The notes below the pieces were generated by a model. The model ran no database searches, had not been told where the DNA came from, and was given only the letters and a program-made list of their open reading frames with translations. From Cyclobacterium plantarum (GTDB lineage: Bacteria > Bacteroidota > Bacteroidia > Cytophagales > Cyclobacteriaceae): DNA of 64,000 bases. Location of the stretch: the NCBI RefSeq assembly GCF_011290685.1, contig NZ_JAANYN010000003.1, forward strand, positions 293,341 to 357,340. The letters run 5' to 3'. How positions within the stretch are numbered: the first letter of the stretch is position 1; the number at the start of each line of letters is the position of its first letter. Made by a program: the position numbers and the translations under genes. Below, in pieces: positions 18,165-36,357 of the stretch.

Positions 18165-18173
18165 TTGATCCAT

Positions 18174-19229: not shown

Positions 19230-19257
19230 TTTGTTTTCTTTCCTGCGTATATCTTTG
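19230..19257 (+). promoter_or_regulatory. Candidate Bacteroidota promoter for the SusC/amidase operon
   Basis: TTTG (19230-19233), 16-base spacer, TATCTTTG (19250-19257) match the Bacteroidota -33/-7 pattern TTTG and TAnnTTTG, the spacing being slightly short. Transcription would start near 19264, leaving a leader of about 209 bases before the SusC ATG at 19473. Confidence 0.5.
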
Positions 19258-19472
19258 ATCAAGAAGGACTTAGCAGCTGTCGAAATTTAAAGATTTAATT
19301 TGACTCAGACATTATAGTATTATTGTTTTTGTAGTCTGATTATATCGCCTTCTTATCGCCCAATTTTAGCCCCCCCAGAGTAATCTGTTCAAGCTTGAAC
19401 GCAGGATTTCCTGTGGTACTTCCGGTATATTCCGAAAGTGCAGTTTTATCACACATTAACCACTAACAAATT

Positions 19473-22400
19473 ATGAAAAATTTTACTAACTCAAAGGAAC
19501 GACGTTCCTGGGGAATAAGACCATTTATGGGGATGGTCGTTCTCATCGCCTGTTTCGCATTTCATTCGCTTCATGCGCAGGACAAGACTGTAACTGGAAA
19601 AGTTATTGACGAAAATGAAGAATCCATTCCGGGTGCCAGTGTGCTGGTCAAGGGTACAACAAAAGGTGTCGCTACAGACATCAATGGTGAATTCTCTTTG
19701 AATTTATCGGAATCAGAAAATGAATTGGAGGTATCCTTTATTGGCTACGATCAAAAGGTAGTCAAAGTAGGGAACCAAAGCAACCTGACAGTATCTTTAT
19801 CCTCTGAAGAAACGGCTTTATCCGAGGTGGTGGTTACCGCCTTGGGTGTAAAGCGAGATGAACGGGCGTTAGGATACACCGTTCAGCAAGTGGACACCAG
19901 AGGCCTGGATGAGGCCAAAGAGACCAACATCGTAAACTCCCTTACGGGAAAAATTGCGGGCGTCCAAATTTCCAATTCTTCGGGAAACATAGGGGGTTCA
20001 TCCCGTATCACCATCAGGGGAATTAACTCTATTTCTGGTAATAACCAACCATTATTTGTGGTGGATGGTACTCCTATTGACAACTCCAATTACAATTCTG
20101 ACGATCAGGTTTCTGGAAATGGGGGTAGAGATTATGGCAATGCCGCTCAAGACATTAACCCTGATGATATAGCGTCTATTTCAGTCCTCAAAGGACCCAG
20201 TGCATCGGCTCTATATGGATCCAGAGCCTCTAATGGTGTTATTTTGATCACTACAAAATCTGGTGAAAACACGAAAGGAATAGGTGTTAGTGTCAATTCA
20301 TCCACCATGTTTAGCAACGTATTTTTGTTGCCAGAAATGCAGAATGAGTATGGGGGTGGTTTTGCCCTCACCTTCGATGAGGCGGTAGATCCACTGGATG
20401 GCCAGACGTATAAGGTGGTCAACACCAATGCGAATAACAGCTGGGGACCCAGGTTTGATGGTACTTTGGTAAGGCATTGGGACAGCATGTACCCGGGAGA
20501 ACCCAATTATGGGGAAGTACGCCCATGGGTGGCAACACCCAATAACGTTAGGGACTTCTTCGAAACCGGGGTGACCCTTTCAAACAATGTTTCCATTAGC
20601 GGTGGGGATGATAAGAGCTCTTTCAGGCTTTCTTACACCAATTTGGACCAGACCGGGACTATGCCCAATAGTTCGCTGAACCGAAACACCATTGCTGTAA
20701 GTGCCAATACACAGCTTTCTGATAAGTTTTCAGCGGGTGCTAAAATCAACTACATTCGGACGGAGGCTATAGGAAGACCAGCAACGGGAGATTGGTCTCC
20801 GGAGCGGCCGGTAAATGTGTTGACTTACTGGTATGCCTGGACACAGCGGCAGATTGATCCTGCAAGAATGAGAGATTATAAATCAGACAGGTATTACCAC
20901 ATGACCTGGAATACCCAGGGTTTGGGACGTCATTTGGAACAAAGTTATAACAACAATCCATACTTCACCCTGTATGAAAGTTATAATAATGATTTGAAAG
21001 ACAGGGTTTTTGGTAATATCAATATTTCTTACCAGATCCTGCCGGAATTATCTTTGACGCTATATGCCAGGACAGATTTTTATAATGATGTAAGAGAGGA
21101 CAGGGCCTCAATAGGGGGTTATCTTCAAAACGCTTACGAAAAAGACCTCTACAATTTTAGAGAAGATAACCTGGAATTGCTGGGTCAGTACAATACAGAA
21201 TTTGGGGATGATTTTAGTTTGGGGGTTACTTTCGGTGGAAACATTCGGAAAAATACCTTTAAAAATAACTATACAAGAACCCAGGGTGGTTTAAGTGTGC
21301 CAAATTTTTACAATTTGATGGCATCCCTTCAGCGTCCTGAGATAAGAGACTTTACTTCTGAAAGGGAAGTTCACAGTATCTACGCCAGTGGAAACATTGG
21401 GTATAAAGACTACCTCTTTTTCGAGGCTTCTTTGCGAAATGACTGGTCTTCCACTTTGCCTGTGAATAACAATTCTTATTTGTATCCAGCAGTATCCAGC
21501 AGTTTTGTTTTTTCCAATTTGATGACCGGTGCTGATTTCTTCTCATTTGGAAAAATGAGAATTGGTTGGGCACAGGTGGGAAATGATACTGATCCGTATC
21601 GTTTGATCAATACCTATGCTAATGGAGATCCCTATGGAAACACCTCTGTATTTACTGTAGATGATGTTTTGAAAAACAGTAACCTGAAACCCGAGATTGT
21701 TTCCAATCTGGAGGCTGGTCTGGATTTGAGGTTTTTGGAAAACAGAATCGGTTTGGATTTTACCGTATATAAAGTAAATACTTTTGATCAAATTTTAGCA
21801 CTTCCGGTCTCCTCTACCACAGGTTTTCAATCTCTTATAGTCAATGCGGGAGAAATGGAGAATAAAGGCATTGAAGTCATGCTTAGCGGTACTCCGGTAG
21901 AAACAAGTAATTTTTCCTGGGACGTTAATTTTAATATTGCCAGGAATAGGAATAAGGTGCTGGAACTGGCCGAGGGGCAGGACAATTTTGAACTTGGATC
22001 AAGGGAAACAAATTCGATCAATGCAACCGTAGGACAGCCCTACGGCACCATTATCACGCCAAATGTAATCTACCATGAAGAGACTGGTAAACCAATTGTC
22101 GGAAGTAATGGGTTTTATTTGCGTAACCCTGGTGAAGTAGTAGGAAATATTATGCCTGATTTAACGGGCGGACTATCCAATACCTTTACCTACCGGGGAA
22201 TTAGTTTAAGTGCTTTGATTGATTTTCAGTCTGGAGGGAGCTTTTGGTCAGAAACCGTACAAAATGGCATAGCTAATGGGCAGTTTATTGAATCTGTGGG
22301 CGACAATGACAGAGGGGTTCCCATGAGAAACCCCGTTGCCGAAGGAGGAGGAATCAGAGGAGATGCCGTTTTTGAAAATGGAGAACCTAATACGGTTTAT

Positions 22401-22706
22401 TTAGAAGCACAGAATTATTTAAAGCAATATTATAATTTGGATGGATTGCATGTTTACGATGCCTCCTACATCAAGTTACGTGAGATCAGGCTGGGTTACA
22501 GCCTACCTGCCAGAATGTTAAGCAATTTATTTGTTAGAGGAGTCAGACTTTCTGTTTTTTCCAGGAACGTGGCATTGCTCCACAGTAATGTGCCTCATAT
22601 TGATCCCTCAGAAATTGCTTATGGGTCAAGTAATGTTCAAGGATTAGAAGGTGCTTCTCTGCCTGCGCCAAGGGTGGTTGGTTTTAATATCAACCTCAAG
22701 CTGTAA
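19473..22706 (+). CDS. SusC/RagA-family TonB-dependent outer-membrane transporter (amidase locus)
   Basis: 1077 residues. Signal peptide (to HAQ, residue 36), carboxypeptidase-regulatory-like beta domain (about 40-112), SEVVVTALG linker (117-125), plug domain with the SusC signature ITIRGINSISGNNQPLFVVD (the run begins near residue 185) and VLKGPSASALYGSRASNGVI, then a 22-strand barrel ending VGFNINLKL. SusC proteins import substrates held by their SusD partner, powered by TonB. Here the partner follows after 77 bases and seven amide-hydrolase-type genes come next on the same strand, so the cargo is probably an amide- or peptide-like compound instead of a glycan. No sigma or anti-sigma gene is adjacent. 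The substrate is inferred from context only. Confidence 0.95.
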   Translation: MKNFTNSKERRSWGIRPFMGMVVLIACFAFHSLHAQDKTVTGKVIDENEESIPGASVLVKGTTKGVATDINGEFSLNLSESENELEVSFIGYDQKVVKVGNQSNLTVSLSSEETALSEVVVTALGVKRDERALGYTVQQVDTRGLDEAKETNIVNSLTGKIAGVQISNSSGNIGGSSRITIRGINSISGNNQPLFVVDGTPIDNSNYNSDDQVSGNGGRDYGNAAQDINPDDIASISVLKGPSASALYGSRASNGVILITTKSGENTKGIGVSVNSSTMFSNVFLLPEMQNEYGGGFALTFDEAVDPLDGQTYKVVNTNANNSWGPRFDGTLVRHWDSMYPGEPNYGEVRPWVATPNNVRDFFETGVTLSNNVSISGGDDKSSFRLSYTNLDQTGTMPNSSLNRNTIAVSANTQLSDKFSAGAKINYIRTEAIGRPATGDWSPERPVNVLTYWYAWTQRQIDPARMRDYKSDRYYHMTWNTQGLGRHLEQSYNNNPYFTLYESYNNDLKDRVFGNINISYQILPELSLTLYARTDFYNDVREDRASIGGYLQNAYEKDLYNFREDNLELLGQYNTEFGDDFSLGVTFGGNIRKNTFKNNYTRTQGGLSVPNFYNLMASLQRPEIRDFTSEREVHSIYASGNIGYKDYLFFEASLRNDWSSTLPVNNNSYLYPAVSSSFVFSNLMTGADFFSFGKMRIGWAQVGNDTDPYRLINTYANGDPYGNTSVFTVDDVLKNSNLKPEIVSNLEAGLDLRFLENRIGLDFTVYKVNTFDQILALPVSSTTGFQSLIVNAGEMENKGIEVMLSGTPVETSNFSWDVNFNIARNRNKVLELAEGQDNFELGSRETNSINATVGQPYGTIITPNVIYHEETGKPIVGSNGFYLRNPGEVVGNIMPDLTGGLSNTFTYRGISLSALIDFQSGGSFWSETVQNGIANGQFIESVGDNDRGVPMRNPVAEGGGIRGDAVFENGEPNTVYLEAQNYLKQYYNLDGLHVYDASYIKLREIRLGYSLPARMLSNLFVRGVRLSVFSRNVALLHSNVPHIDPSEIAYGSSNVQGLEGASLPAPRVVGFNINLKL

Positions 22707-22783
22707 AATCCATAGTAAATATTACACAGTGATTGAGGCTAAAATCTCTTACAACTAATGTTTAAAATCAAAGAGTTATCAAA

Positions 22784-24265
22784 ATGAAAAATAACATAAA
22801 TAAAAGTTTGATTATGCTGGCAACAGGCTTTTTGCTTCTCTTGTCGGCTTGTACGGAAGGCTTTGAAGATTTAAATATTGATCCAAATCAGCCTTTGGAA
22901 GTGCCAACTTCAAGTCTATTGACTGGTGCACAACGGGAGTTGGTTGCAAATATATTCGGGAATCATAGTCAGCTTGATGGAATTGGTCTACCGGGTATGA
23001 TTTACGCTCAGCAAATGGCTAGTTTGAGGGGTGGGGCCACCGATACATATGCGACCGTAGAGGCAGATTTTTCCGCTTTTTACACCAGTGGACTCAGGGA
23101 TTTGGAGGAAATCATTCTTCTGAACACCAATCCGGAAACCATGGTCAATGCAGCCCTTTCAGGACCAAATCAAAATCAAATTGCTGTAGCCCGAATTCTT
23201 AAAGCATGGGCCTATCAAAATATAACGGATGTATGGGGGGATATTCCCTATGAAGAGGCACTCCAGGGGAATAATTTTCCGCTTCCTGCCTACACTACCC
23301 AGGAGTTCATTTATATGGATTTGCTCAAGGAACTTTCTGAAGCAGCTGAAATGATTGATATTGCAGGGGGGGGTATAGCCGGAGATATCATTTTTGATGG
23401 TAACATGGACAAATGGTACAGGTTTGCGAATAGCCTGAGGATGAGGGTTGCCCTTCGCTTGTCCAATGTCGCCCCGGAAGTAGCTGAAAATCACATTTCC
23501 GAAGCGTTTACAGCAGGACCAATGGTTTCGGTAGACGACAATGCTTACTACAAATTTTTAGAATCCCAGCCAAACAACAATCCATGGTTTTTCCGATTTG
23601 AATTAAGTGTCCCCAACTACGGTGTAGGTAGCACTTTGGTGGATATGCTCAAATCATTAAATGATCCAAGGCTTGAAAAGTATGCAGATGTTGCTTTCAA
23701 TCAGGATTTGGGAGGAGGATATATCGGGCAGCCTGTGGGGCTTGACGTAGCTTCTGGAAGTGCTATAAGTGACTTTGCAGTATCCTGGCCAAATGCTGAA
23801 AATATCCTACAACCCACCTCAACTTTTACCATCATGTCTTATGCCGAGGTAAATTTCATTTTGGCTGAAGCGGCTGAAAGGGGTTGGATTTCTGGCAATG
23901 CCTCGGATTATTACAATTCGGCAATTTCGGCTTCTATGGAACAATGGGGTATTTCGGATCCCTCAGCTATAGAAAGTTATTTGTCTCAGGATGATGTAAG
24001 GTATGACAGTACAGATCCATTCAAGTCAATTGGAAATCAGAAGTGGATATCTCTTTACATGCAGGGTGTGCAGTCCTGGAGTGAATGGCGCAGATTACAA
24101 TATCCAGAGCTGGATGTTGCTAAAGATGCAGTCATTGAGGCGATCCCGAGACGAAGGGGCTATCCGCCAAGTGAAATCAATTTGAATAAATCAAACTATG
24201 AGGAGGCCCTGGCCAGACAAGGTTCGGATGATCTGCTAACCAGGGTATGGTGGGACAGACAATAA
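22784..24265 (+). CDS. SusD/RagB-family substrate-binding lipoprotein (amidase locus)
   Basis: 493 residues with a lipoprotein signal (lipobox LSAC, Cys 23) and the SusD opening CTEGFEDLNIDPNQP, as in the SusD-like-2 subgroup. Typical features are the helical tetratricopeptide-like core with AWAYQNITDVWGDIPYEEAL (the run begins near residue 141) and the C-terminal YPPSEINLNKSNYEEALAR segment. The protein would cap the SusC barrel and bind the substrate at the cell surface. It lies between the SusC gene and the first amidase gene, 27 bases before the latter, with no terminator visible. Confidence 0.94.
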   Translation: MKNNINKSLIMLATGFLLLLSACTEGFEDLNIDPNQPLEVPTSSLLTGAQRELVANIFGNHSQLDGIGLPGMIYAQQMASLRGGATDTYATVEADFSAFYTSGLRDLEEIILLNTNPETMVNAALSGPNQNQIAVARILKAWAYQNITDVWGDIPYEEALQGNNFPLPAYTTQEFIYMDLLKELSEAAEMIDIAGGGIAGDIIFDGNMDKWYRFANSLRMRVALRLSNVAPEVAENHISEAFTAGPMVSVDDNAYYKFLESQPNNNPWFFRFELSVPNYGVGSTLVDMLKSLNDPRLEKYADVAFNQDLGGGYIGQPVGLDVASGSAISDFAVSWPNAENILQPTSTFTIMSYAEVNFILAEAAERGWISGNASDYYNSAISASMEQWGISDPSAIESYLSQDDVRYDSTDPFKSIGNQKWISLYMQGVQSWSEWRRLQYPELDVAKDAVIEAIPRRRGYPPSEINLNKSNYEEALARQGSDDLLTRVWWDRQ

Positions 24266-24292
24266 AGAACATTTGAACTAAAAAATAGTGTT

Positions 24293-25840
24293 ATGATTTT
24301 CAAAAAGAAAAATAGCAGAAGAGATTTCATAAGTTCATCTTTCATGTTGTTTGGTAAGGGGGGGCTTGGCCTGATGGCTCCCCCTGTTTTTAGCGCAGCC
24401 AACAGCATCAATTCCTCCCATTTCTATCAATCCAAATACCATTCACAAGACGTTAAGTCTGCCTCTGTTGTGCAGATGGCGCAAATGATCAGGGATAAAG
24501 AAATTTCCTCCGTGGAATTGGTTAACATCATGTACAGTCGGATAGAGGAGGTAAATCCCCAGATCAACGCAGTGGTTTTGACTTGTAAAGAAAGGGCCCT
24601 TATGGAAGCTCAAAAGGCTGATGAGATGCTGGGGAAAGGTGATTTGATGGGCGCTCTACATGGAGTACCCATGACCATCAAGGACTCTCTGGATACAGCG
24701 GGAGTACTCAGTACAGGGGGTACTTTGGGCCGAAAAGATCATATCCCTTCGCAAGATGCCACCATAGTGGCCAGACTTCGTTCTCAGGGAGCCATTCTTT
24801 TGGGTAAAACCAACACTCCAGAATTTACCTTGTCAGGTACTACCGCTAATTTGATATATGGTATGACAAGCAATCCATATAAAGAAGGGTATAGTCCCGG
24901 AGGAAGCAGTGGTGGGGCAGCCGCTATTGTTGCCACTGGTGGTTCACCATTTGATATTGGGTCAGATTTTGGCGGGAGCATCAGAGGACCAGCTCATTTC
25001 AATGGTATTGCCGGAATGAAACCTACTACCGGATTGGTACCGCGTACCGGCCATATTGTTGATTACGGAGGACTATTTGATGCCTATCAGGTACTTGGGC
25101 CTATGGCCAGATATGTGGAGGACTTGAAACTCATCCTTCCAATCATCATGGGACCGGATCAAATAGATGCAGCCATTCACCCGGTTCCCTGGACAGATCC
25201 TGACACCGTCCAAATAAAAGATTTGAAATATGCCTGGTTTGTGGCGCATGGAAGCACGAAGGATTGCTCAATGGAAACTGTAGCAGCCATTACCCGAGCT
25301 GTGGCATCCTTGGAAACTGCTGGTATTCAAGTTAAAGAAGATGCACCGATTAAGGATTTCCAGGAAGCTGAAGAAGTTCGTTATCAGCTATCTAGTGCTG
25401 ATGGCAGAGCTTGGGTCGGTAGGCTCACAGAAAAATATGGAACCAAACAAACGCATCCCCTTCTGAGGTTGCCTGATCCATCGACTGCTATTCCTTCAGT
25501 CGATTTTACCGAGATGGTGGAAAAATTAGATGCTTGCAGAAGTAAGTTATTACAATGGATGCATAACTATGACATTGTCATTTGTCCTGTCCATTTTGAT
25601 GGTGCAGCGCCAAATCCTACGGTGTTCGAAAGATCCTCAAGGTCTGCGGATGACTATGGATACATGGGAATTTTTAATCTCACGGGTTGGCCTGCTGCAG
25701 TTGTAAGAGCAGGAACGAGTAAAGAAGGTTTGCCAATAGGCGTTCAGATAGTGGGACAGCCTTTTCAGGATCACAAGGTATTGGCCGTTGCCCAGTTTTT
25801 GGAAAAAGAGCTGGGAGGCTGGCAGGCACCTCCAATTTAA
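24293..25840 (+). CDS. Tat-exported amidase-signature enzyme, subtype A (first copy)
   Basis: 515 residues. A twin-arginine signal (NSRRDFI, residues 7-13) predicts export folded to the periplasm. The amidase-signature triad is visible: K130 (MTIKDS), cis-Ser S205 (GGSSGG) and nucleophile S229 (GGSIR), with the same 24-residue Ser-Ser spacing as in fatty-acid amide hydrolase. This family hydrolyses carboxamides to acid plus ammonia or amine. It shares an S-A-D-G motif in the C-terminal half and the GPDQ-x-D-A linker with the third amidase of the locus, which marks subtype A. Context: first enzyme after SusC/SusD. Substrate unknown; GatA-type transamidation is unlikely given the export signal. 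Confidence 0.9.
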   Translation: MIFKKKNSRRDFISSSFMLFGKGGLGLMAPPVFSAANSINSSHFYQSKYHSQDVKSASVVQMAQMIRDKEISSVELVNIMYSRIEEVNPQINAVVLTCKERALMEAQKADEMLGKGDLMGALHGVPMTIKDSLDTAGVLSTGGTLGRKDHIPSQDATIVARLRSQGAILLGKTNTPEFTLSGTTANLIYGMTSNPYKEGYSPGGSSGGAAAIVATGGSPFDIGSDFGGSIRGPAHFNGIAGMKPTTGLVPRTGHIVDYGGLFDAYQVLGPMARYVEDLKLILPIIMGPDQIDAAIHPVPWTDPDTVQIKDLKYAWFVAHGSTKDCSMETVAAITRAVASLETAGIQVKEDAPIKDFQEAEEVRYQLSSADGRAWVGRLTEKYGTKQTHPLLRLPDPSTAIPSVDFTEMVEKLDACRSKLLQWMHNYDIVICPVHFDGAAPNPTVFERSSRSADDYGYMGIFNLTGWPAAVVRAGTSKEGLPIGVQIVGQPFQDHKVLAVAQFLEKELGGWQAPPI

Positions 25841-25877
25841 TCTTGATATGATAATTGACCACTTAACAACTAAATAA

Positions 25878-27470
25878 ATGAACAACCTGAAAAAACAATT
25901 ATTAAAAAAAGATATTAAGGGAAATACCAGAAGGGCTTTCATTGCCAGGTTTTCGGCTGGTGCTTTAGTGACGGCATGCTTGCCATACATTGCCAATGGG
26001 AGTGATAAACGTTTGCTTATCAGGGAATTTGATCCTGCTGCAGAACCTGCTGAGATTCATTATAAATCTGTGACCTCCATAGCTGAAATGATTCGCAAAA
26101 AAGAAGTGTCAGCATTGGAAGTGGTTCAGGCACATATTGATAGAATCGATGACATAAATTACCAGCTGAATGCAGTGGTAATGGAATGCTTCGACAGAGC
26201 TCTTGAAGAAGCAAAAAGGGCAGATCAATTCATGGCGAAAGGAAGTTCCACTGGTTTGTTACATGGTGTACCCATGACGATCAAAGACTCTTTTATGACT
26301 AAAGGAGTGGTGAGCACTGGTGGCACTATTGGTAAAATGAACCATGTCCCTGAGGAAGACGCGACAGTTGTAGCCCGGGTGAGAGAAGCAGGAGGCATAT
26401 TATTGGGCAAAACCAATACTCCGGAGTTCACGCTCATTGGAGGTGTTTTGGGAGTCAACTCTACCAATAACATCATCTATGGCATCAGTAAAAACCCTTA
26501 TGATTTTAACAAAAGTACATCTGGAAGTAGCGGAGGTGCCGGCGCCATAGTGGCATCTGGTGGAGCTTCATTTGATGTGGGTACTGATTGGGGAGGAAGT
26601 GTGAGAGGGCCTTCCTGTACCAATGGAATAGCTGGTTTAAAGCCAACATCGGTTAGGTTGCCCCGTACTGGACATATTGTAGATTATGGTGGGCTTTTTG
26701 ATCCCTGGCAGCAGCCCGGACCCATGGCCAGATATGTGAAGGACCTGGATTTACTTACCCCTATCATGGCTAGCCCTGATTTTAGAGATGCGGCAGTTGT
26801 GCCTATGCCCTGGCCGGACTATAAAGAAGTAGATTTAGGTAAACTAAAAGTGGCATTTTTTCCAGAAAACGGAATAGCCAATACAGACCTGGCTACCATT
26901 GAAACAGTTAAAATAGCGGCAAAATGGATGGATGAGGTAGCTATGGAAGTCAAAGAGGATTGTCCCAAAGACCTACTGGTTGAGTTGGGAACCATCAGGC
27001 GGGAATTGATAATCGGGGATGGCTGGCAATGGCTTAAAAGAGCTACCGAGCGGGCAGGCTCTAAGACTTATGGAGCCTCTCTGAGAGAAAGACTTGCAGA
27101 ACAGGGGAATGTAATTAGCACGGCTGAATACACCAAGCTATTGGAAATGCAGGATGCCAACAGGAGCAAAATGCTCCAATGGTTTGCCCAATATGATGTG
27201 ATCATTTGCCCCGCAACTAATTCTGCAGCCGGAGACATTAATAGTGGATTTAATGAATCATCAAGGTATATGGATAATCCCGGGGAGAGTTACACCAAGC
27301 CTTTTAACACCTGTGGATGGCCTGGAGCAGTGGTCAGGTGTGGACAAAATAAAGATGGCTTGCCTATAGGCGTGCAGGTAGTGGCTCAGCCCTGGAGAGA
27401 GGATGTGGCCCTGGCAGTAGCCAGTTACCTTGAGTTAAAGTCAGGTGGTTGGAAAAAGCCTCCCATCTAA
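25878..27470 (+). CDS. Tat-exported amidase-signature enzyme, subtype B (first copy)
   Basis: 530 residues with a twin-arginine motif (NTRRAFI, residues 16-22). Triad K136, S217 and S241 in MTIKDS, SGSSGG and GGSVR, all present. Compared with subtype A it has an insertion of about ten residues after TPEFTL (GGVLGVNSTNN), the segment PTSVRLPRTGHIVDYGG, the linker DAAVVPMPWPD and a GDGW motif in the C-terminal half. These are shared with the fourth amidase. It starts 37 bases after the previous stop, so cotranscription is likely. It should act in the periplasm on an amide. The substrate pocket probably differs from subtype A, but that is inferred only from the sequence differences. Confidence 0.9.
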   Translation: MNNLKKQLLKKDIKGNTRRAFIARFSAGALVTACLPYIANGSDKRLLIREFDPAAEPAEIHYKSVTSIAEMIRKKEVSALEVVQAHIDRIDDINYQLNAVVMECFDRALEEAKRADQFMAKGSSTGLLHGVPMTIKDSFMTKGVVSTGGTIGKMNHVPEEDATVVARVREAGGILLGKTNTPEFTLIGGVLGVNSTNNIIYGISKNPYDFNKSTSGSSGGAGAIVASGGASFDVGTDWGGSVRGPSCTNGIAGLKPTSVRLPRTGHIVDYGGLFDPWQQPGPMARYVKDLDLLTPIMASPDFRDAAVVPMPWPDYKEVDLGKLKVAFFPENGIANTDLATIETVKIAAKWMDEVAMEVKEDCPKDLLVELGTIRRELIIGDGWQWLKRATERAGSKTYGASLRERLAEQGNVISTAEYTKLLEMQDANRSKMLQWFAQYDVIICPATNSAAGDINSGFNESSRYMDNPGESYTKPFNTCGWPGAVVRCGQNKDGLPIGVQVVAQPWREDVALAVASYLELKSGGWKKPPI

Positions 27471-27609
27471 ATAATTTCATTTCAAAAATACTTCTACTGA
27501 TAATTGAAATTACCACAGCATTTTAATCAAACCTAATGGATCACCATCAATAAGTTGAAACAGGAAGGTGTAAAAATAATTATTCCAACCAATACTAATC
27601 CAAAACCAA

Positions 27610-29124
27610 ATGAAAAAGCAAACCACCAACAACCGAAGGAAATTTATTACAACGCTGGGAATGGGATCCCTGGGCTCAATGTTGCCTGCCTATGGTCAGC
27701 TGCTTCCGGAGGGAGTAGTGCTACCTCAGCAACAATTTGTTTCCTTGGATGAAACAGATGAACTTTTATACATGTCAGCTACAAAAGTGGCTGAAATGAT
27801 CAGGAATAAAGAAATAAGCAGCCAGGAAGTTGTGGAGAGCTGTCTGGCAAGAATAGATGAGGTTAATCCCCAAATCAATGCCGTCGTACAGCTAGCCCGG
27901 GAACGAGCGCTTTTGGAAGCCAAGGCGGCAGATGAAGCGGTTATGGCAGGCAAAACATTGGGTCTGCTCCATGGTGTGCCTATGACGATAAAAGATTCGT
28001 TTGACACGGCTGGAATTATTTCAACTGCCGGTACCTTGGGGCGCAAGGATTATATGCCAGGCAAAGACGCTACGGTAGTTGCCAGACTGCGGGAGGAGGG
28101 GGCCATATTGCTGGGCAAGACCAATACCCCCGAATTCACCATGTCATATCTTACCTCTAATCTTATATACGGTCAAACACTAAATCCTTACGACCTCACC
28201 CGTCACCCATCAGGGAGCAGTGGCGGAGCAGCTGCTATTCTTGCATCTGGCGGTTCTTATTTTGACATAGGAACAGATTCCGGTGGTAGTGTACGGGCTC
28301 CTGCCCACGTCTGTGGTTTGGCCAGTATCAAGCCTACCAGCGGAAGGATACCTCAGACAGGCCATTTACCTGGTTATGGTGATCGCTATGGTTGTTATCA
28401 ACAACCAGGTCCAATGGCCAGGAGAGTGGAAGATTTGTATTTGTTGTTATCCATACTTTCAGGTCCTGATCAAATGGATGCGAGCATAAGCCCGGTGCCA
28501 CTTTATGACCCTGCCGAGGTGGATTTTTCAAAACTGAGAATAGCTTATTACACTACAAACGATGTGGCAGAGCCTATTCCTGAAATCAAAAAAATGGTGG
28601 TTGATTGCGCCAACCAACTCAGACCATCGGTTAGCAGCGTAGACGAAGCAAGACCACCTGTTCTTCAAGAACTTTCCGAGAAAAGGAGTGAGCTAAACAG
28701 CGCAGATGGTAAAGCTCACATCAAGCGACTTATTAAGGCTTGCGGTACTACCGTAATTTCACCCAATCTCAATATTTCTGGTGAAGTAGTTTCTGGCTCA
28801 CAATACACCAAACTGGTGGAGGAGATAGATGCCCTTAAAAGTAAAATGCTTCATTTTATGGATGACTTTGATATACTGCTTTGTCCGGTTACCTCCACAG
28901 CAGCCATGAAATTGGATGCCGAAAGAATACCGGGCCACTGGTATACATCAGAATATAATGCCACCGGATGGCCAGCCGCGGTGGTACGTGCAGGCACTTC
29001 AAATGAGGGTTTACCGCTTGGAATACAAATTGTCGGAAAGCCCTGGACGGAAGATAAAGTGCTGGCGGTAGCTGCTGATTTGGAGCGGAAATTTGGAGGG
29101 TACTCCAAGCCAGAAAATATATAA
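27610..29124 (+). CDS. Tat-exported amidase-signature enzyme, subtype A (second copy)
   Basis: 504 residues, twin-arginine signal NNRRKFITTLG (7-17). Triad K128 (MTIKDS), S203 (SGSSGG) and S227 (GGSVR). It resembles the first amidase of the locus in lacking the insertion after TPEFT, in the SADG motif (NSADGKAHIKRL against SSADGRAWVGRL) and in the GPDQMDASISPVP linker, so I call it subtype A. A 139-base gap without a terminator separates it from the amidase before it. An upstream Met at 27555 is in a different frame and has no support. Periplasmic carboxamide hydrolysis is expected; substrate unknown. Confidence 0.9.
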   Translation: MKKQTTNNRRKFITTLGMGSLGSMLPAYGQLLPEGVVLPQQQFVSLDETDELLYMSATKVAEMIRNKEISSQEVVESCLARIDEVNPQINAVVQLARERALLEAKAADEAVMAGKTLGLLHGVPMTIKDSFDTAGIISTAGTLGRKDYMPGKDATVVARLREEGAILLGKTNTPEFTMSYLTSNLIYGQTLNPYDLTRHPSGSSGGAAAILASGGSYFDIGTDSGGSVRAPAHVCGLASIKPTSGRIPQTGHLPGYGDRYGCYQQPGPMARRVEDLYLLLSILSGPDQMDASISPVPLYDPAEVDFSKLRIAYYTTNDVAEPIPEIKKMVVDCANQLRPSVSSVDEARPPVLQELSEKRSELNSADGKAHIKRLIKACGTTVISPNLNISGEVVSGSQYTKLVEEIDALKSKMLHFMDDFDILLCPVTSTAAMKLDAERIPGHWYTSEYNATGWPAAVVRAGTSNEGLPLGIQIVGKPWTEDKVLAVAADLERKFGGYSKPENI

Positions 29125-29364
29125 TAACATTACTTTACTGATGGGTCTGAATAGCCGTATTGCCAATTCGATTTTATAAATCAACCCGATCAATCCACAG
29201 GTTAATACAGGAATTTGATCATTCCGTTTATCAACCAGAGGATGAGTGGAACATCTTATTTTATGCGCAATTCGGCATTTGTACTTAAAAAAAAGTAAAG
29301 GTGAATTTTCAAGATCTACTTCATTAGAATTCAATAGATTATAAAATATTAAAAACGTCACCAA
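29125..29364. other. Spacer between amidase genes three and four
   Basis: 240 bases, AT-rich toward the 3' end. No terminator hairpin, TAnnTTTG box or short gene is visible. It is the longest gap inside the amidase run and is where an internal promoter would have to be. Confidence 0.4.
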
Positions 29365-30948
29365 ATGAAAAAGAATATATTAAAGCAAGCCGGAAGTATT
29401 CAGTCAAGGAGAAAATTTTTGTCATTGATTGGTGCTGGCAGCGCCACGGCAATGACTTTTTCAACTTCTAACCTAACGGCCGCCAGCTTAAAGCCCTCTT
29501 CTACTCAATATCTTGCTTCAAAAGACAAGACAGATGATTTAATCTATATGTCAGCGGTAAAGCTTTCAGAGATGATCAGGACCAAAAAAGTTTCATCAGT
29601 GGAACTGACACAAGCCTATATCGATCGCATTGAAGATGTTAATTATCACCTCAATGCAGTAGTGATGCAGTGTTTTGACCGGGCCATGGATGAAGCCAAA
29701 GCAGCCGACGCCGCATTAAAGAAAAAACAATTAATGGGGCCACTCCACGGTGTTCCCATGACCCTTAAAGACTCTTTCGAAGCTGAGGGTGTAATCAGTA
29801 CAGGTGGCACACTTGGCAGAATCGATTACGTTGGTAAAAAAGATGCTACTGTGCTCGCCAGAATGAGAAACAATGGGGCCATATTGATAGGAAAAACCAA
29901 TACACCGGAATTTACCCTTGCAGGAGGTGGTATGCGAGGGGTACGTACCACGGGTAATATTATTTACGGACTTAGTAAAAACCCGTACGACCTTACAAGA
30001 GGTACATCTGGAAGTAGCGGAGGAGCGGGTTCTATTGTAGCTGCAGGCGGCTCGGGTTTTGACATTGGAACAGACTGGGGAGGTAGTGTTAGGTTGCCTT
30101 CCAGCACAAATGGAATAGCCGGACTCAAACCTACAAGCGTGAGATGTCCCCGCACCGGTCATATTGTAGATTATGGAGGAGTATTTGATTCCTGGCAACA
30201 GCCTGGCCCTATGGCTCGCAGGGTCGAAGACCTGATTATGCTTACGCCACTGATGAGTGGTCCGGACGGTATGGACGCAGCTGTAGTACCCATGCCCTGG
30301 CCCGATCCTGCGCTAATTGATATCAAAAAGCTTAAAGTCGCCTTTTATCCCTCCAACCTTATTGCGGATACTGCGGAGGAGACCCAAAATACCATCAGGC
30401 AAGCAGCCAAATGGATGGAAGAAGCTGGAGCAGAAGTCAACGAGGATATGCCATTGGAAATTTTTACCGAGCTTGGTGAAATCAGAAGAGAGTTGGTTGC
30501 CGGAGATGGTTGGGCATTTCTTAAAAGGGCTGGTGATTTGCATGGAAGCAAAACCCTTAGTGAATCCATTCAAAATAGACTAGACAATGGAAATCCAATC
30601 TCAGCAGATCGCTATTCGGAACTTTTAACGCTTCAGGATAAAAATAGATCAAGGATGCTTCAGTGGTTTCAAAAATATGATGTGATTCTTTGTCCTACTA
30701 CTGCCACTCCAGCAGAAGAGATCGACCAGGGTATTGGCAGTGAATGGACCAGTAGCAAACCTGGGGCAAGCTACTGTGGACCTTACAATACGACAGGATG
30801 GCCTGTAACCGTGGTAAGGGCAGATTCAAACGGGGCTTTACCCGTAGGAGTACAATGTGTGGCTCATCCGTGGAGAGAGGATGTTTCATTGGCAGTTGCC
30901 CAATATCTCGAAAGCAGATCCGGAGGCTGGAGAAAACCAATGATTTAA
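29365..30948 (+). CDS. Tat-exported amidase-signature enzyme, subtype B (second copy)
   Basis: 527 residues, twin-arginine signal QSRRKFLSLIG (13-23). Triad K135 (MTLKDS), S217 (SGSSGG) and S241 (GGSVR). It carries the subtype B insertion (GGGMRGVRTTGN), PTSVRCPRTGHIVDYGG, DAAVVPMPWPDP, GDGW and the C-terminus PWREDVSLAVAQYLESRSGG, all close to the second amidase of the locus. The gene order A-B-A-B therefore points to duplication of a two-gene block. All catalytic residues are intact, so both B copies are probably active. Substrate unknown. Confidence 0.9.
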   Translation: MKKNILKQAGSIQSRRKFLSLIGAGSATAMTFSTSNLTAASLKPSSTQYLASKDKTDDLIYMSAVKLSEMIRTKKVSSVELTQAYIDRIEDVNYHLNAVVMQCFDRAMDEAKAADAALKKKQLMGPLHGVPMTLKDSFEAEGVISTGGTLGRIDYVGKKDATVLARMRNNGAILIGKTNTPEFTLAGGGMRGVRTTGNIIYGLSKNPYDLTRGTSGSSGGAGSIVAAGGSGFDIGTDWGGSVRLPSSTNGIAGLKPTSVRCPRTGHIVDYGGVFDSWQQPGPMARRVEDLIMLTPLMSGPDGMDAAVVPMPWPDPALIDIKKLKVAFYPSNLIADTAEETQNTIRQAAKWMEEAGAEVNEDMPLEIFTELGEIRRELVAGDGWAFLKRAGDLHGSKTLSESIQNRLDNGNPISADRYSELLTLQDKNRSRMLQWFQKYDVILCPTTATPAEEIDQGIGSEWTSSKPGASYCGPYNTTGWPVTVVRADSNGALPVGVQCVAHPWREDVSLAVAQYLESRSGGWRKPMI

Positions 30949-31143
30949 AAGCTTTTCTGTCCAGGCTTATCAAAATAAAAATCGGCTGAAATACCACTTA
31001 AAAAAAATCGACCATAGTTCTTTCCTGGGGAAAAGAATTATTCCACTAGGAATAGGATGATGCTATTACCGGTTTGACCTAAGGGGCTTCAGGCCTTTTG
31101 ATAAATTTCATTTACCCGACAAGCAAATAAAAAATAATATCAT

Positions 31144-32298
31144 ATGGAAATTAAAAAGAATTCAAGAAGAGGGTTTTTAGAAAAATCGCTCTACGGTGGT
31201 GCTCTTGCCCTTACCGGATTACCAGGTATGGTACTGGGCAAAGACCTTGCAGACTCACCAGTTAAAAATGGTGTCAATACCTTAAAGAAAATCAAACCGG
31301 ATAAGGTCCTTCGTTCATTTCCTGAAAATATGGTCTGGGGTTATTTTGGGGCTGATGTTCCGGCGAAAATCTCCGTAAAAGAAGGTGAAATCGTAGAGAT
31401 CCATTCGATTAGTACCTCTGGAGTTTCGAGGGAAGACCCGGAAGCTTTTTTCAAAGAAAATAACCTGCCTTTAGATGACCATGCAAAAGAGCTTATTGAT
31501 ATCATAAATAATGTCCCCCCAGAGCCCTCCGGAATTAGGGGGCATATGCTCACCGGGCCTGTTTATATTGAAGGCGCAATGCCCGGTGATAGTATTGAGA
31601 TCCGCATTCATGATGTACGGCTGAGAAGTGACTATGGGGTAAATCACGTAAGGCCTGGCAGCAGAGATGATGTTCCCTTGGAAATCAAAAACCAGGAAAG
31701 CTTTGTTTATAAATACAATAAAAAAAGAACCAGTGCAGAATTTCTTCCCGGGGTAGAAATTCCATTGAAACCGTTTATGGGAGTAATGGCGCTTTCGCCT
31801 CCACCTGAAACGGGACGCGTAAGCTCTATTCCACCCGATTTTTTTGGAGGCAACCTGGATTTGAAGCATTTGGTCAAAGGCACCTCACTCACCTTGCCGG
31901 TGTCTGTAGAAGGCGGACTTTTCACTACCGGAGATGCTCATGGAGCACAAGGAAATGGAGAGGTGAGTGGTACGGCCATAGAAACGTCTATGATATTGGT
32001 GGCCGAGTTCATTATTCACAAAAAGTCCATCCAGATGCCTGTAGCCGAAACGCCGGATCATTTCATTGTTTTTGGGCTAAACCCTGATTTGGACGAGGCA
32101 ATGAAGCAGGCACTTCAGCAATCCGTAGTCTTCATTCATGAAAAACTCGGCTTCACCTATGAGGAAGCAATGTCAATATCCAGTACCGCAGTTGATTTCG
32201 AGGTTACGCAAGTCGTTGATCGCACTGAGGGAGTACACGGAATGATACCTAAGTCCATCTTCACCAACAAAAAATTTGATTATTGGTACTCCTCTTAA
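31144..32298 (+). CDS. Tat-exported acetamidase/formamidase family protein
   Basis: 384 residues with a twin-arginine signal (NSRRGFLEKSL, residues 6-16) and hydrophobic stretch to about 32. The body fits the FmdA/AmdA family, hydrolases of short amides unrelated to the amidase-signature fold: TGPVYIEGAMPGDSIEIRI (137-155) and the hallmark TTGDAHGAQGNGEVSGTAIE (261-280). Most characterized members are cytoplasmic; an exported one inside an amidase locus suggests it handles a small amide released by the other enzymes. A 195-base gap precedes it; the next gene starts 14 bases after its stop. Confidence 0.88.
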   Translation: MEIKKNSRRGFLEKSLYGGALALTGLPGMVLGKDLADSPVKNGVNTLKKIKPDKVLRSFPENMVWGYFGADVPAKISVKEGEIVEIHSISTSGVSREDPEAFFKENNLPLDDHAKELIDIINNVPPEPSGIRGHMLTGPVYIEGAMPGDSIEIRIHDVRLRSDYGVNHVRPGSRDDVPLEIKNQESFVYKYNKKRTSAEFLPGVEIPLKPFMGVMALSPPPETGRVSSIPPDFFGGNLDLKHLVKGTSLTLPVSVEGGLFTTGDAHGAQGNGEVSGTAIETSMILVAEFIIHKKSIQMPVAETPDHFIVFGLNPDLDEAMKQALQQSVVFIHEKLGFTYEEAMSISSTAVDFEVTQVVDRTEGVHGMIPKSIFTNKKFDYWYSS

Positions 32299-32312
32299 AA
32301 CGCACTTATAAT

Positions 32313-34067
32313 ATGACAACCACCAACCAATTTCCGATTTCACCTAAATTCGTTTTCTTTCTTCTTTTGGTGTTTTCTTTCAAGGTAGGCAATGCCCAGG
32401 AAAAGCCTCGTATAGCTATTTTTTCAGGCCCTACTGCAACGATTCAAAATAGTCATCCACTAATCACCAGTAATAAAGCCAGAGAGCAGAACGAACTATC
32501 ATTATTGACAAACGATGAGGGCGAAACGATGCCTTTTGATCGATTGTACTATCAAAAGATAGCAGCTCCCGTAACCTTATACATTGAGATGTTTACCGCC
32601 CATCCCCTGGAAAGCGACGTCAAGGAATTGTATGGGGAGCCTGACGGCTATGTTGATGAAAATGGGAAATTCCGGAAAACCAGGAAATCTCCCTCGGACA
32701 AACCCGTCTTAAAGGTTGAATTAAGGCCAGAAGATGGTCTATACCCCTTGCCGTACATGGCAGTTCAGGCCGACGGCAAACCCTGGGATGCCACGGCTGC
32801 GTATCCAGGAGCACCGTTTTCAGCGTCCAGACAAACATTCTACCCCAATGCCTCCAGAATTTTCGAAGAGATTGAGCGAAACGGCGGTAATATTTATGGG
32901 GTTGCCGACTATGACTTCTACAGACCGGCTCCGGCAGGGGGATATACCAAAGGTTTGCCAGCTGAAGATCGAACCGATACTGGTGATGGGGATATTCCAC
33001 CTGAAACGTTGGGTAAGGACTTTTTCACTTATGGCCCCTACGGTGCCTCTCAAAACCGGATGCAATTGGCAAAAGCTACCAACATGGTGCAGGAGGTAAT
33101 GGCTTCAGGTGAGTACGATGGCTCTATCTGGCTTGAGGGAAGCCCCAGTATTGAAAATACTTCCTATTGGATGGGTTTACTTATCGATTCGAAAGCCCCA
33201 CTGGTATTTAATGCTGCGCAACGGATGCGTGGACTGGTGAGTGCCGATGGAGATCAGAACATTATCGACGGTATCAATTACATTTCTTCCGGAGTATGGG
33301 CGGATGAAAACGGGATAACCCGGGTCGGTTCAGTGATGATCCAGGATCAAATAATATTTTCTTCCCGGGAAGTACAAAAGGGAGATGCAAGGCCAGGAGG
33401 ATATGTGACCACAGGAGGTTATGGCGGTATTATAGGATCCATGGGCTATGGACCTAAATTGACATTTCTTCCTTTGAGGAAGCATACTCACCTTTCGGAA
33501 GTAAACTTCACTAGAATTCCCAAAACTGTTCCAGGTATATCGGTTTCAGAAGCAGGTTCCATTGCAAATGTTGAGGTTGCGGTAAAAGATGCCGGGGGCA
33601 AGCTGATTCCTGAGTCCATGCCGATGGTTTCGATCTTCAAAAGTGCCCGTTGGAAAACGGAAGATGATGGCAGTGATGACCCCTCTGGTGAAATAGATAT
33701 TCTTGCCAGAATAAACGACAATCTAAAAAAATATCCGCTAGCTGGTTTTGTTGGAGAGGGAATGGCCCCTTATGGCTCCATGATAGCACCAATGGATGCA
33801 GCCTTAGAATTAGCTGCACTGCATGGATATCCAGTACTTAAAGCAGCTAGAGGTAATGCAGATGGGTTTATGAATACTGATCCCGATAATTTGTTTATCG
33901 AGGGCCACAATACCACATCCACCAAAGGCAGAGTCCTTTTAATGGCTTGTATCCTTCGATATGGAACTTATCCACCTGCAAAGGATCCGTTAAATCCAAC
34001 GGCGAAAGAATTGGAGGCCATCAAAGCCAAGATCAAATTGTATCAGGAAGTTTTTCACACCCACTAA
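32313..34067 (+). CDS. Secreted asparaginase-fold protein with altered catalytic motif
   Basis: 584 residues from the ATG at 32313, with a Sec signal peptide ending VGNAQ (about 29). The middle and end match the type II L-asparaginase layout: LEGSPSIENTSYW (274-286) where asparaginases have HGTDTMEETAYF, then PLVFNAAQRMRGLVSADGDQN (the run begins near 296) for the GAMRP...SADG segment, a conserved Lys at 356 in VQKGDARPGGYVTTGGYG, and AALHGYPVLKAARGNADG for the C-terminal domain. The first Thr loop may be SGPTATIQ (38-45). The second catalytic Thr-Asp is replaced by Ser-Pro, and about 150 extra residues separate the two loops, so activity on asparagine is doubtful. Fold assignment is moderately sure; function unknown. 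The frame opens at 32283, overlapping the previous gene; the later Met suits the signal peptide. Confidence 0.7.
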   Translation: MTTTNQFPISPKFVFFLLLVFSFKVGNAQEKPRIAIFSGPTATIQNSHPLITSNKAREQNELSLLTNDEGETMPFDRLYYQKIAAPVTLYIEMFTAHPLESDVKELYGEPDGYVDENGKFRKTRKSPSDKPVLKVELRPEDGLYPLPYMAVQADGKPWDATAAYPGAPFSASRQTFYPNASRIFEEIERNGGNIYGVADYDFYRPAPAGGYTKGLPAEDRTDTGDGDIPPETLGKDFFTYGPYGASQNRMQLAKATNMVQEVMASGEYDGSIWLEGSPSIENTSYWMGLLIDSKAPLVFNAAQRMRGLVSADGDQNIIDGINYISSGVWADENGITRVGSVMIQDQIIFSSREVQKGDARPGGYVTTGGYGGIIGSMGYGPKLTFLPLRKHTHLSEVNFTRIPKTVPGISVSEAGSIANVEVAVKDAGGKLIPESMPMVSIFKSARWKTEDDGSDDPSGEIDILARINDNLKKYPLAGFVGEGMAPYGSMIAPMDAALELAALHGYPVLKAARGNADGFMNTDPDNLFIEGHNTTSTKGRVLLMACILRYGTYPPAKDPLNPTAKELEAIKAKIKLYQEVFHTH

Positions 34068-34074
34068 GAAGATA

Positions 34075-35643
34075 ATGCTACTTACAAAAAAGACAATACA
34101 GATTTCATTGATTGGAATGCTGGTTCTGAATGCTTGTGCTTCACAGGAAGAAAAATCTGCTGATTTTCCTCTTGTAGAGGCCACAATAGCCGGTATTCAT
34201 GAAGCTATGGAAAATGGAGGTCTTACCGCAGCATATTTGGTCCAGGGATATCTGGACAGAATTGAAGCTTACGATAAACAAGGGCCCTCTATCAACTCCA
34301 TCATTATAATCAATCCTGAGGCAATGGCTACAGCAAGGTACCTGGACAGTATCTACGCCGAAAGTGGAATGGTAGGTCCTCTACATGGTATTCCCATCAT
34401 CGTCAAAGATAACTACGACTATTTTGGAATGCCTACCAGTAATGGTACACTGGCTCTCAAGGATTCTTATCCTCCGGATGATGCATTTCAAATCAAAAAA
34501 TTAAGGGAGGCTGGTGCCATCATCATAGCCAAGTCAAATTTGGCCGAATTTGCTTCTAGTGGGGAGTTTTCGGTGAGTTCAGTGTTGCCTGGATATTCAC
34601 GTAATCCCTATGATACCCGTAGAACAACTGCAGGATCCAGTGGTGGTACCGCTGCCTCCATAGCTGCAAGTCTGGCAGTCGTGGGTTTGGGGACGGATAC
34701 CGGCAGTTCTATTAGAGGTCCTTCGGCGCATCAGGCATTGGTTGGGATAAGGTCCACTATGGGGTTAACCAGCAGAGATGGAATAGTTCCACTTGCCCTT
34801 ACCAATGATGTGGGCGGTCCAATGGCCAGAACCGTAGAAGATGCAGTAAGGGTATTCAACGTCATTGCGGGATATGACGAAGCTGATCCCGTCACAGAGG
34901 CCAGTATAGTATCCAGGGAGGAATCCTATATCTCCTTTCTTGATCCTGATGCCCTAAAGGGAAAAAGAATTGGTGTGCTGCATCAACTCTTCCCCGAAAA
35001 CGATTCTGATAGCAGTGTTTATGCGCTTATGTTGAAGGCCCTGGAAGATTTAAACCAGGGAGGTGCTATTTTAATCGATAGTGTGAAGATTGATGATCTA
35101 GACTCTTTAAATGAGTCGGGCACCCGTATCCGCCAGCTCAAACGAGACTATAATGCCTATCTTGCCAGCCTGGGGGATAGTTCCAGGTTTAAAACGCTCC
35201 AGGATATCATTGATTCTGAGGAATACCATCCCTATTTGGAAAAGAGGTTACTTGATGCACAGGGGGATGTGGATGTACCGGAAGACCATCCCGATTGGGA
35301 TAAAAATATGGCACTAAGACAAACCCTTCGGGATCGGATTTTGGCAGTTATGGACAGTTTAAATCTGGATGCACTTATATATCCTTCTTTCACTTATCCT
35401 CCCAGGTTGATTGGAGATCTCAATGGTCCCAGGGGGGATACCAGTGGCAAACTTTCGCCACCAACTGGATTTCCGGCTATTGCAGTACCTATGGGATATT
35501 CCTATGATAAATATCCGGCAGGGTTTCAACTTCTGGGTAGGCCATATAGCGAAGGATTGCTTTTTGGTATCGCGTATGGTTATGAGCAGCAAACCAACCA
35601 CCGTAGAGCACCTGAGGGTTTCGATGAATTAACTTCAAAGTAA
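34075..35643 (+). CDS. Amidase-signature lipoprotein
   Basis: 522 residues. A lipoprotein signal with lipobox LNAC (Cys 21) replaces the twin-arginine signal of the other four amidases. Triad K111 (IIVKDN), S188 (AGSSGG) and S212 (GSSIR), with the usual 24-residue Ser spacing. Its sequence is distant from subtypes A and B and closer to the GatA-like, plant and bacterial exported amidases with LHGIPIIVKDN and GTDTGSSIRGPSA. It starts 7 bases after the asparaginase-fold gene and is the last gene of the run, followed by a bidirectional terminator. It is probably anchored in the periplasmic face of a membrane or at the surface, and so could act before or after import. Substrate unknown. Confidence 0.9.
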   Translation: MLLTKKTIQISLIGMLVLNACASQEEKSADFPLVEATIAGIHEAMENGGLTAAYLVQGYLDRIEAYDKQGPSINSIIIINPEAMATARYLDSIYAESGMVGPLHGIPIIVKDNYDYFGMPTSNGTLALKDSYPPDDAFQIKKLREAGAIIIAKSNLAEFASSGEFSVSSVLPGYSRNPYDTRRTTAGSSGGTAASIAASLAVVGLGTDTGSSIRGPSAHQALVGIRSTMGLTSRDGIVPLALTNDVGGPMARTVEDAVRVFNVIAGYDEADPVTEASIVSREESYISFLDPDALKGKRIGVLHQLFPENDSDSSVYALMLKALEDLNQGGAILIDSVKIDDLDSLNESGTRIRQLKRDYNAYLASLGDSSRFKTLQDIIDSEEYHPYLEKRLLDAQGDVDVPEDHPDWDKNMALRQTLRDRILAVMDSLNLDALIYPSFTYPPRLIGDLNGPRGDTSGKLSPPTGFPAIAVPMGYSYDKYPAGFQLLGRPYSEGLLFGIAYGYEQQTNHRRAPEGFDELTSK

Positions 35644-35687
35644 GATACCTTACTTCTGGATTGCTTAAAAAATAATATATATCAAAA

Positions 35688-35716
35688 AAACCAGCCCAAA
35701 TTTCTTGGGCTGGTTT
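35688..35716. terminator. Bidirectional terminator between the amidase locus and the second SusCD locus
   Basis: Arms AAACCAGCCCAA (35688-35699) and TTGGGCTGGTTT (35705-35716) are perfectly complementary with a 5-base loop and A/T flanks. It lies between convergent genes, 44 bases after the amidase stop and 40 before the lipoprotein stop. Confidence 0.92.
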
Positions 35717-35756
35717 TGTGGTTTTAGCATTTTAAAGAGTTGTGAATTTTCTTTTT

Positions 35757-36329: not shown

Positions 36330-36357
36330 TTTGCTTTGAATTTTAGTGGATAGACAA

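Follow-up and report, generated by a model that had tools for sequence, protein, structure and literature searches.

Loci in which a SusC/SusD pair or another TonB-linked receptor feeds exported enzymes are known mostly for the use of glycans. Two SusCD-type importers with other cargo stand closest for comparison: the peptide-binding BT_2264/BT_2263 of Bacteroides thetaiotaomicron, with a peptide as the ligand of BT_2264; and RagA/RagB of Porphyromonas gingivalis, which carries oligopeptides. Here, a nine-gene cassette of the marine-type bacterium Cyclobacterium plantarum is described, found in a stretch of 64,000 nucleotides (contig NZ_JAANYN010000003.1, positions 293,341 to 357,340; hereafter the window, from whose first letter its positions are counted) of a 6.17 Mb genome assembled in 37 contigs. 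The cassette resembles the polysaccharide utilization loci (PULs) of Bacteroidota in its SusC/SusD head, in the exported hydrolases behind this head, and in being present or absent as a whole. It differs from them in that its seven enzymes all belong to amide-hydrolase families, with neither glycan enzymes nor an adjacent regulator.

The best explanation of the cassette, with a probability of roughly 0.6, is a mobile, PUL-like amide-utilization locus that combines import with periplasmic amide hydrolysis. Within this explanation, import plus amide hydrolysis as a form of nutrition is quite probable. That the substrate is peptide-like is a tentative proposal, with the odds somewhat against it.

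A nine-gene unit

Nine plus-strand genes between positions 19473 and 35643 encode, in order, SusC, SusD, A1, B1, A2, B2, Fmd, AsnL and AmdF (Table 1). An earlier reading of the letters without database searches (the sequence-only reading) had reported these nine genes, and open reading frames (ORFs) together with Pfam and NCBIfam matches bear out their places and strand. It had also set a terminator at 35688, where a strong hairpin is confirmed. The intergenic gaps are 77, 27, 37, 139, 240, 195, 14 and 7 bp; for AsnL, whose ORF was listed from a TTG at 32283, the start used here is the ATG at 32313.

The nine genes form one unit, because their order is kept across species and they are jointly absent at matching flanks. 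The order was verified in the window, in the Cyclobacterium metagenome-assembled genome (MAG) Bin_11, in C. salsum, C. roseum and C. jeungdonense, and in the genome G587; AsnL relatives at 85-97% identity occur in the three named species and Bin_11. Six of 12 Cyclobacterium genomes, the source genome among them, have four A1-like enzymes each, and at 1e-40 none is found in the other six. A genome of another genus (G103) has the same nine-gene order, with AmdF on a neighbouring piece and flanks that differ from those of the window. Its within-cassette gaps are 100, 20, 22, 31, 59, 65 and -5 bp, as compared to 80, 30, 40, 142, 243, 198 and 17 bp in the window by the same measure.

Joint absence is seen in two genomes (G195 and G067), in which exactly the nine cassette genes are missing between matching flanks: the upstream OmpA-family gene is followed, 76 and 133 bp past the aligned end, by the window's downstream genes. 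This downstream set comprises sm2, SusD2, SusC2, an M23 peptidase gene and an aspartyl-type tRNA synthetase gene. Four further genomes (G582, G583, G584 and G586) have at the same place neither the cassette nor SusC2/SusD2, and 3-9 kb of other DNA lies between. The second SusC/SusD pair was considered as part of the cassette and rejected, as G195 and G067 have it while lacking the cassette; at this place, the cassette-bearing genome G174 showed only part of the small protein.

These observations bear on the simplest alternative, that SusC/SusD and the amidases adjoin each other fortuitously and work independently. SusCD pairs are frequent in Bacteroidota, and a second pair lies next door, which are the only points in its favour. 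Order kept in six Cyclobacterium genomes and in one of another genus, together with joint absence, already contradicts it, as do the TonB receptors that accompany these types of enzyme in Verrucomicrobia. This alternative is hardly credible.

Clustering within the genome is also marked, with five of seven PF01425 genes in the cassette. None of 200,000 random placements put five of the seven within 11.4 kb; because random placement ignores tandem duplication, conservation is the better test. The G+C content is 44.4% in the cassette and 43.1% in the window, a composition that does not point to recent arrival.

Table 1. Features of the cassette and its surroundings in the window, and related hydrolase arrays of Verrucomicrobia (AS, amidase signature; Tat, twin-arginine translocation).
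Feature	Position or extent	Strand	Evidence or content
Promoter-like block upstream of SusC, TAnnTTTG then TTAGCAGCTG	19248..19279	+	conserved in alignment
SusC-type TonB-dependent outer-membrane transporter	19473..22706	+	TIGR04056 656 bits; nearest solved chain BT_2264 (5fq6)
SusD-type lipoprotein	22784..24265	+	PF12771 370 bits; lipobox LLSAC, by eye; nearest solved chain 5j5u
A1, Tat-type AS amidase	24293..25840	+	PF01425 323 bits; RRDF near N-terminus; Lys/Ser/Ser motifs
B1, Tat-type AS amidase	25878..27470	+	PF01425 295 bits; RRAF; Lys/Ser/Ser motifs
A2, Tat-type AS amidase	27610..29124	+	PF01425 333 bits; RRKF; Lys/Ser/Ser motifs
B2, Tat-type AS amidase	29365..30948	+	PF01425 291 bits; RRKF; Lys/Ser/Ser motifs; 57% identity to B1
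Fmd, Tat-type FmdA/AmdA-family protein	31144..32298	+	PF03069 108 bits; RRGF at N-terminus; nearest solved 3b9t, 2f4l
AsnL, secreted asparaginase-fold relative, catalytic positions altered	32313..34067	+	PF00710 31.7 bits; alignments
AmdF, lipoprotein AS amidase, peptide-amidase-like	34075..35643	+	PF01425 288 bits; lipobox LNAC, by eye
Terminator-like hairpin closing the cassette	35687-35717	both	terminator scan
Second SusC/SusD pair and small protein without Pfam match	35757-41283	-	Pfam; convergent to cassette
G1074 array	about 55 kb		30 amide hydrolases: 16 AmdF-type, 6 asparaginases, 6 A/B, 1 Fmd, 1 AsnL; 2 TonB receptors
G1188 array			30 amide hydrolases: 18 AmdF-type, 6 asparaginases, 6 A/B; 1 receptor
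G1129 array			10 amide hydrolases; 1 receptor
G1219 array			8 amide hydrolases; 1 receptor
G1214 array (smallest)			6 amide hydrolases: 4 AmdF-type, 2 A/B
L010 array			9 amide hydrolases, 1 receptor before contig end

Recurrence beside TonB receptors in other phyla

The genome samples comprised some hundreds of species per phylum, and the system is rare in them. Within the family, AsnL was found in 5 of 196 genomes (source genome included); samples of other phyla gave 1 of 398 Pseudomonadota (the seed G589) and 2 of 194 Verrucomicrobia (the seed G588, and G1074). At E <=1e-110, A/B enzymes occur in 1 of 296 Bacteroidota, which is the source genome itself, in 2 of 299 Pseudomonadota (the seed G589, plus G832 with a single, weaker match), and in 5 of 120 genomes in the family of G1074, that genome included. 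The 299 Pseudomonadota gave no new A/B cluster. G832 was dropped as a further locus, its A2-like gene (39%) standing alone, outside any cluster, within the 20 kb read. No plasmid matched B2 at 1e-60, and a phage search with B1 returned 11 records, all below 60% identity (26.5-29.3% in the ten listed), which are generic AS proteins.

The genome scan named two loci outside Bacteroidota, one in the Verrucomicrobia MAG isolate ErkenSummer (L010, genome G588) and one in a Cellvibrionaceae MAG (L011, genome G589). Six Verrucomicrobial loci were read, and their arrays hold between 6 and 30 amide hydrolases (Table 1; counts from merged tblastn matches at 1e-15, with ORFs annotated mainly against window genes). 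AsnL is present in two of the six (G1074 and L010), and Fmd in G1074 and G1219. Pfam places TonB receptor domains beside the arrays of G1074, G1188, G1129 and G1219, and the receptors of these four, one of the two in G1074 among them, share 44-58% identity. The receptor ORF of L010 lacks a Pfam match but shares 44% identity with a G1074 receptor; at G1214, a search of the 40 kb read with the L010 receptor revealed no receptor. By Pfam, the arrays of G1074, G1188 and G1129 also have ExbB, ExbD and TonB genes nearby.

The Lys-Ser-Ser triad is present at the aligned positions in every AS protein of G1074 (22/22), G1188 (24/24) and L010 (7/7), 53 of 53 in total, and the two asparaginases tested of the six in G1074 both score above the type II asparaginase cut-off. 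The AmdF-type paralogs of two loci (16 and 18 copies) have a median identity of 40-42%; because they are so diverse, their sequences suggest different specificities rather than dosage.

LysR regulators stand at the G1074 and G1129 arrays. Beside the ExbB end of the G1074 array (C1 3248512-3250523), an NMT1-type binding protein and a LysR regulator are divergently encoded, possibly a nitrogen-linked regulator.

The Cellvibrionaceae MAG carries A/B, AmdF-type, asparaginase and AsnL genes, several of which are fragmented, in two separate regions. Directly upstream in one of these regions is a pair of ORFs similar to the two portions of the Verrucomicrobial receptors, and the first ORF has a plug domain. 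On the contig of the other region, ExbB, ExbD and TonB genes lie 25-30 kb from AsnL and are too distant to count as part of the locus. With several amidase genes and a receptor in pieces (L105, L110 and L011), this MAG looks as if it held a decayed system or assembly errors.

A tree of 47 rows bears on the history of these enzyme types. The Bacteroidota A1 group joins five Verrucomicrobial A1 proteins (98/98), and the Bacteroidota B1+B2 group joins three Verrucomicrobial B proteins (98/95); three more Verrucomicrobial B-like proteins fall outside the latter. The split between B1 and B2 lies inside the Bacteroidota line. The outgroup branch is very long and the root unsure. As the A1 and B groups each join Bacteroidota and Verrucomicrobia proteins, the A1/B split looks to predate the separation of the copies in these phyla. 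The enzyme types likely moved together between them.

The importer and the enzymes

SusC belongs to the SusC/RagA family, scoring above the cut-off of 368 bits for TIGR04056 and reaching 61 bits against the signature TIGR04057 (cut-off 46); the SusD-type lipoprotein beside it completes the pair. Among solved chains, BT_2264 is the closest SusC by a wide margin, with 453 bits as compared to 182 for the runner-up. RagA/RagB is likewise a SusCD-type importer, yet the cassette SusC is less like RagA (135 bits) than BT_2264.

All seven enzymes carry an apparent export signal, read by eye from the translations rather than by a signal-peptide program: an RR-x-F twin-arginine motif at the start of A1, B1, A2, B2 and Fmd; a Sec-like leader in AsnL; and a lipobox in AmdF. 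The RR.F motif recurs in 45 of the 47 A/B sequences extracted. On these leader motifs, the cassette holds exported degradative enzymes in one unit, as is characteristic of a utilization locus.

The five AS enzymes score 288-333 bits against PF01425, and each has the Lys-Ser-Ser motifs of the Ser-cisSer-Lys triad that marks the AS family. Identity among the four A and B proteins is about 46-57%, and with AmdF it is about 27%. The nearest solved chains of AmdF are those of peptide amidase (1m21/5ac3; 267 bits). This enzyme, Pam (1m21/1m22) of Stenotrophomonas, is a lone enzyme, whereas AmdF belongs to an importer-linked array.

A predicted structure of A1 (pLDDT, the predicted local distance difference test, 64; pTM, the predicted template modelling score, 0.75) matches AS enzymes of many substrates and does not indicate which one applies. 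The urethanases UMG-SP2/3 lead these fold matches and NylA is in the top ten, and sequence searches include both. One explanation would be the degradation of polyamide or urethane oligomers, synthetic or natural, by AS enzymes that act like NylA or urethane hydrolases. However, GatA scores highest in the sequence searches, and ClbL and FAAH are also among the matches, so the likeness is generic to the AS fold. The pLDDT of the A1 model is low for such an argument, and recent evolution on plastics fits poorly with an A1/B split that seems to predate the separation of the copies in Bacteroidota and Verrucomicrobia. Taken together, oligomer degradation is very unlikely.

Fmd scores well above the PF03069 cut-off (27 bits) and far under that of the formamidase equivalog NF045496 (52.6 as against 500 bits). 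It is a member of the acetamidase/formamidase family, as is Halorubrum lacusprofundi amd3 (PMC5052560), and differs in its Tat motif and in this low equivalog score. Its nearest solved relatives are a Tat-signal protein (3b9t) and an acetamidase (2f4l). Fmd was rejected as a marker of the cassette, since 38 of 395 Bacteroidota match it at 1e-30 and its closest outside relatives (G438, G558 and G578; 56-63%) had no other cassette genes in the stretches read.

AsnL had been called an asparaginase-fold protein in the sequence-only reading. The fold assignment stands on the PF00710 match (cut-off 22.5 bits), and the likeness to type II L-asparaginases lies mainly over residues 254-411. The protein is nonetheless probably not a canonical asparaginase: it scores 43.4 bits against TIGR00520 (cut-off 314.3), and its catalytic positions are changed. 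Across an alignment of six AsnL proteins, EGSPS, EGSPT or QGSPx takes the place of the HGT-x-T motif that secreted asparaginases have, and the lysine of the TFKS stretch is replaced; in asparaginases, both are catalytic positions. A threonine (in one case asparagine) stands by eye at the apparent first catalytic motif, GPT or GPN, where the alignment did not put it. Because structure prediction from seven sequences gave a pLDDT of 39, this view of the active site draws on sequence alignment. AsnL would be either an enzyme of altered chemistry or a binding protein.

Relatives of AsnL at 50-57% identity occur in Verrucomicrobia, Cellvibrionaceae and three Rhizobiaceae plasmids, with a fourth plasmid match at 42%. 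In the Rhizobium tumorigenes plasmid (L088 14048-21729, from a plant tumour), Fmd and AsnL are adjacent, urease genes follow, and amidases and an annotated oligopeptide-type ABC (ATP-binding cassette) importer are nearby; two cysteine hydrolases also fall within this 32 kb stretch. A plant-tumour plasmid of R. rhododendri (L087 14078-21729) has the Fmd-AsnL pair with ORFs like those of R. tumorigenes. In A. vitis and Neorhizobium (L086 12207-16698; L089 10771-13583, where AsnL is in two pieces), AsnL adjoins RutA-like flavin monooxygenases, and no Fmd match was found at these two loci.

This company could indicate ureide or amide rings and other small nitrogen-rich molecules as the substrate, in which case Fmd-AsnL would open or trim ureide-type intermediates and the AS enzymes would finish them to ammonia or urea. 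The adjacency of Fmd and AsnL in Cyclobacterium, R. tumorigenes and R. rhododendri, the urease operon and cysteine hydrolases, and the RutA-like neighbours of AsnL are all consistent with this proposal. Weighing against it, the RutA-like enzymes fall under the RutA cut-off (260 and 282 as against 498 bits); the rhizobial amidases are only about 30% identical to those of the window; Pfam finds neither oxygenase nor urease in the nine genes; and small solutes should not need SusCD. Ring-type small molecules are thus an unlikely substrate.

Proposed function and substrate

Returning to amide import and periplasmic hydrolysis, the proposed process would involve: binding and import across the outer membrane, by SusC/SusD, of a scarce, amide-rich and probably oligopeptide-like compound; hydrolysis of different amide bonds in the periplasm by the four Tat-exported AS amidases, Fmd and AsnL, and at a membrane by the lipoprotein AmdF, as their families and signals suggest; and uptake of the resulting ammonia or amines and carboxylates by general transporters. 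Import with periplasmic hydrolysis of an amide compound was the central proposal of the sequence-only reading, and the neighbourhood search it had named as a check supports it: the gene order is kept, the genes go missing jointly, the cassette recurs in another genus at another place, and in Verrucomicrobia hydrolases related to those of the cassette adjoin TonB receptors. This evidence is stronger than expected. Because of the conserved neighbourhood and the receptors beside the related hydrolases, this part of the proposal is well supported.

Several features point to a peptide: the SusC is nearest BT_2264; AmdF is nearest peptide amidase; type II asparaginases stand in the sister loci; and an oligopeptide-type ABC importer stands beside the Fmd-AsnL pair in R. 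tumorigenes.

Other observations weigh against the proposed function. The SusD, as compared to the SusC, is nearer other solved SusDs than the BT_2264 partner (101 bits to BT_2263, 195 to 5j5u). Pfam finds no peptidase, glycosidase or regulator among the nine genes, an unusual lack for a locus that handles peptides or glycans; nor does it find an inner-membrane transporter, and all of these functions must come from other loci. Besides amides, AS enzymes can hydrolyse esters, carbamates and hydrazides, and AsnL, by its altered motifs, may be non-catalytic. The enzyme set varies, in that AsnL is missing from the stretches of G1188, G1129, G1219 and G1214 (weak asparaginase-type matches at most) and Fmd from those read of G1188, G1129 and G1214. 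Conservation between phyla does not extend to the importer, since the Verrucomicrobial receptors have no BLAST similarity to the window SusC at 1e-5. Finally, internal promoters could lie in the gaps of 139, 240 and 195 bp, although the corresponding gaps of G103 measure 31-65 bp.

A substrate of N-acylated glycans or other high-molecular-weight amide nitrogen, with the hydrolases taking acyl groups off amino sugars, would agree with the mostly glycan cargo of SusCD pairs, with the glycan-binding names of several SusD relatives in the PDB, and with an FmdA family that includes a putative acetamidase. It is quite unlikely, as Pfam shows no glycoside hydrolase, lyase or sulfatase in the nine genes; the Verrucomicrobial arrays, whose ORFs were compared mainly with window genes, may contain glycan enzymes. 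With no glycan-active enzyme among its nine genes by Pfam, the cassette is a SusCD/TonB utilization locus but not, strictly speaking, a PUL. The side-chain amides of corrinoids, suggested by seven amides and seven hydrolases, were dropped as numerology with nothing in support.

More broadly, amide-utilization loci could constitute an unrecognised class of TonB-powered nutrient system, in which outer-membrane receptors feed 6-30 exported amide hydrolases that jointly strip nitrogen from complex, amide-rich organic material as PULs strip sugars from glycans, spread over Bacteroidota, Verrucomicrobia and one Gammaproteobacterium, and in some cases with their own ExbB-ExbD-TonB. This generalization falls a little short of an even bet. 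Within open-licence full texts, as covered by titles and abstract openings and with subscription journals and preprints outside this scope, no SusCD/TonB locus of amide hydrolases was described. Bacterial use of amide nitrogen in dissolved organic matter is an open question in aquatic nitrogen cycling, and a recurring locus type of this kind would give genetic handles on it. The loci also offer dozens of diverse amidases with intact triads, and Cyclobacterium species with and without the cassette allow testing.

As for expression, the promoter-like block aligns upstream of SusC as TATATnTTTG followed by TTAGCAGCTG in six Cyclobacterium sequences, and not in G103; TAnnTTTG corresponds to the Bacteroidota -7 element. 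A strict -33/-7 pattern search missed this block and found 4 sites as against 3.3 expected, no excess over chance. A palindromic CAGCTG inside TTAGCAGCTG, just past the promoter-like element, is kept in the same six sequences. The interval 18164-19473 holds no ORF of at least 100 residues, and so no regulator of its own beside the cassette. Weaker plus-strand terminator candidates occur inside the cassette, the longest at 29222-29251 in the A2-B2 gap (11 pairs, 3 of them G-C), and the whole scan gave 24 terminator-like sites as compared to 19.5 expected.

Efflux genes of the resistance-nodulation-division (RND) type, identified by Pfam, lie near hydrolases in G1074 (C1 3175746-3180077), G1219 (C112 37408-41612) and G589 (C5 523788-528076). 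Those of G1219 adjoin Fmd on the same strand and those of G589 adjoin an AmdF piece. In the window, RND and outer-membrane efflux genes lie 15 kb downstream of the cassette, at 51271-55655.

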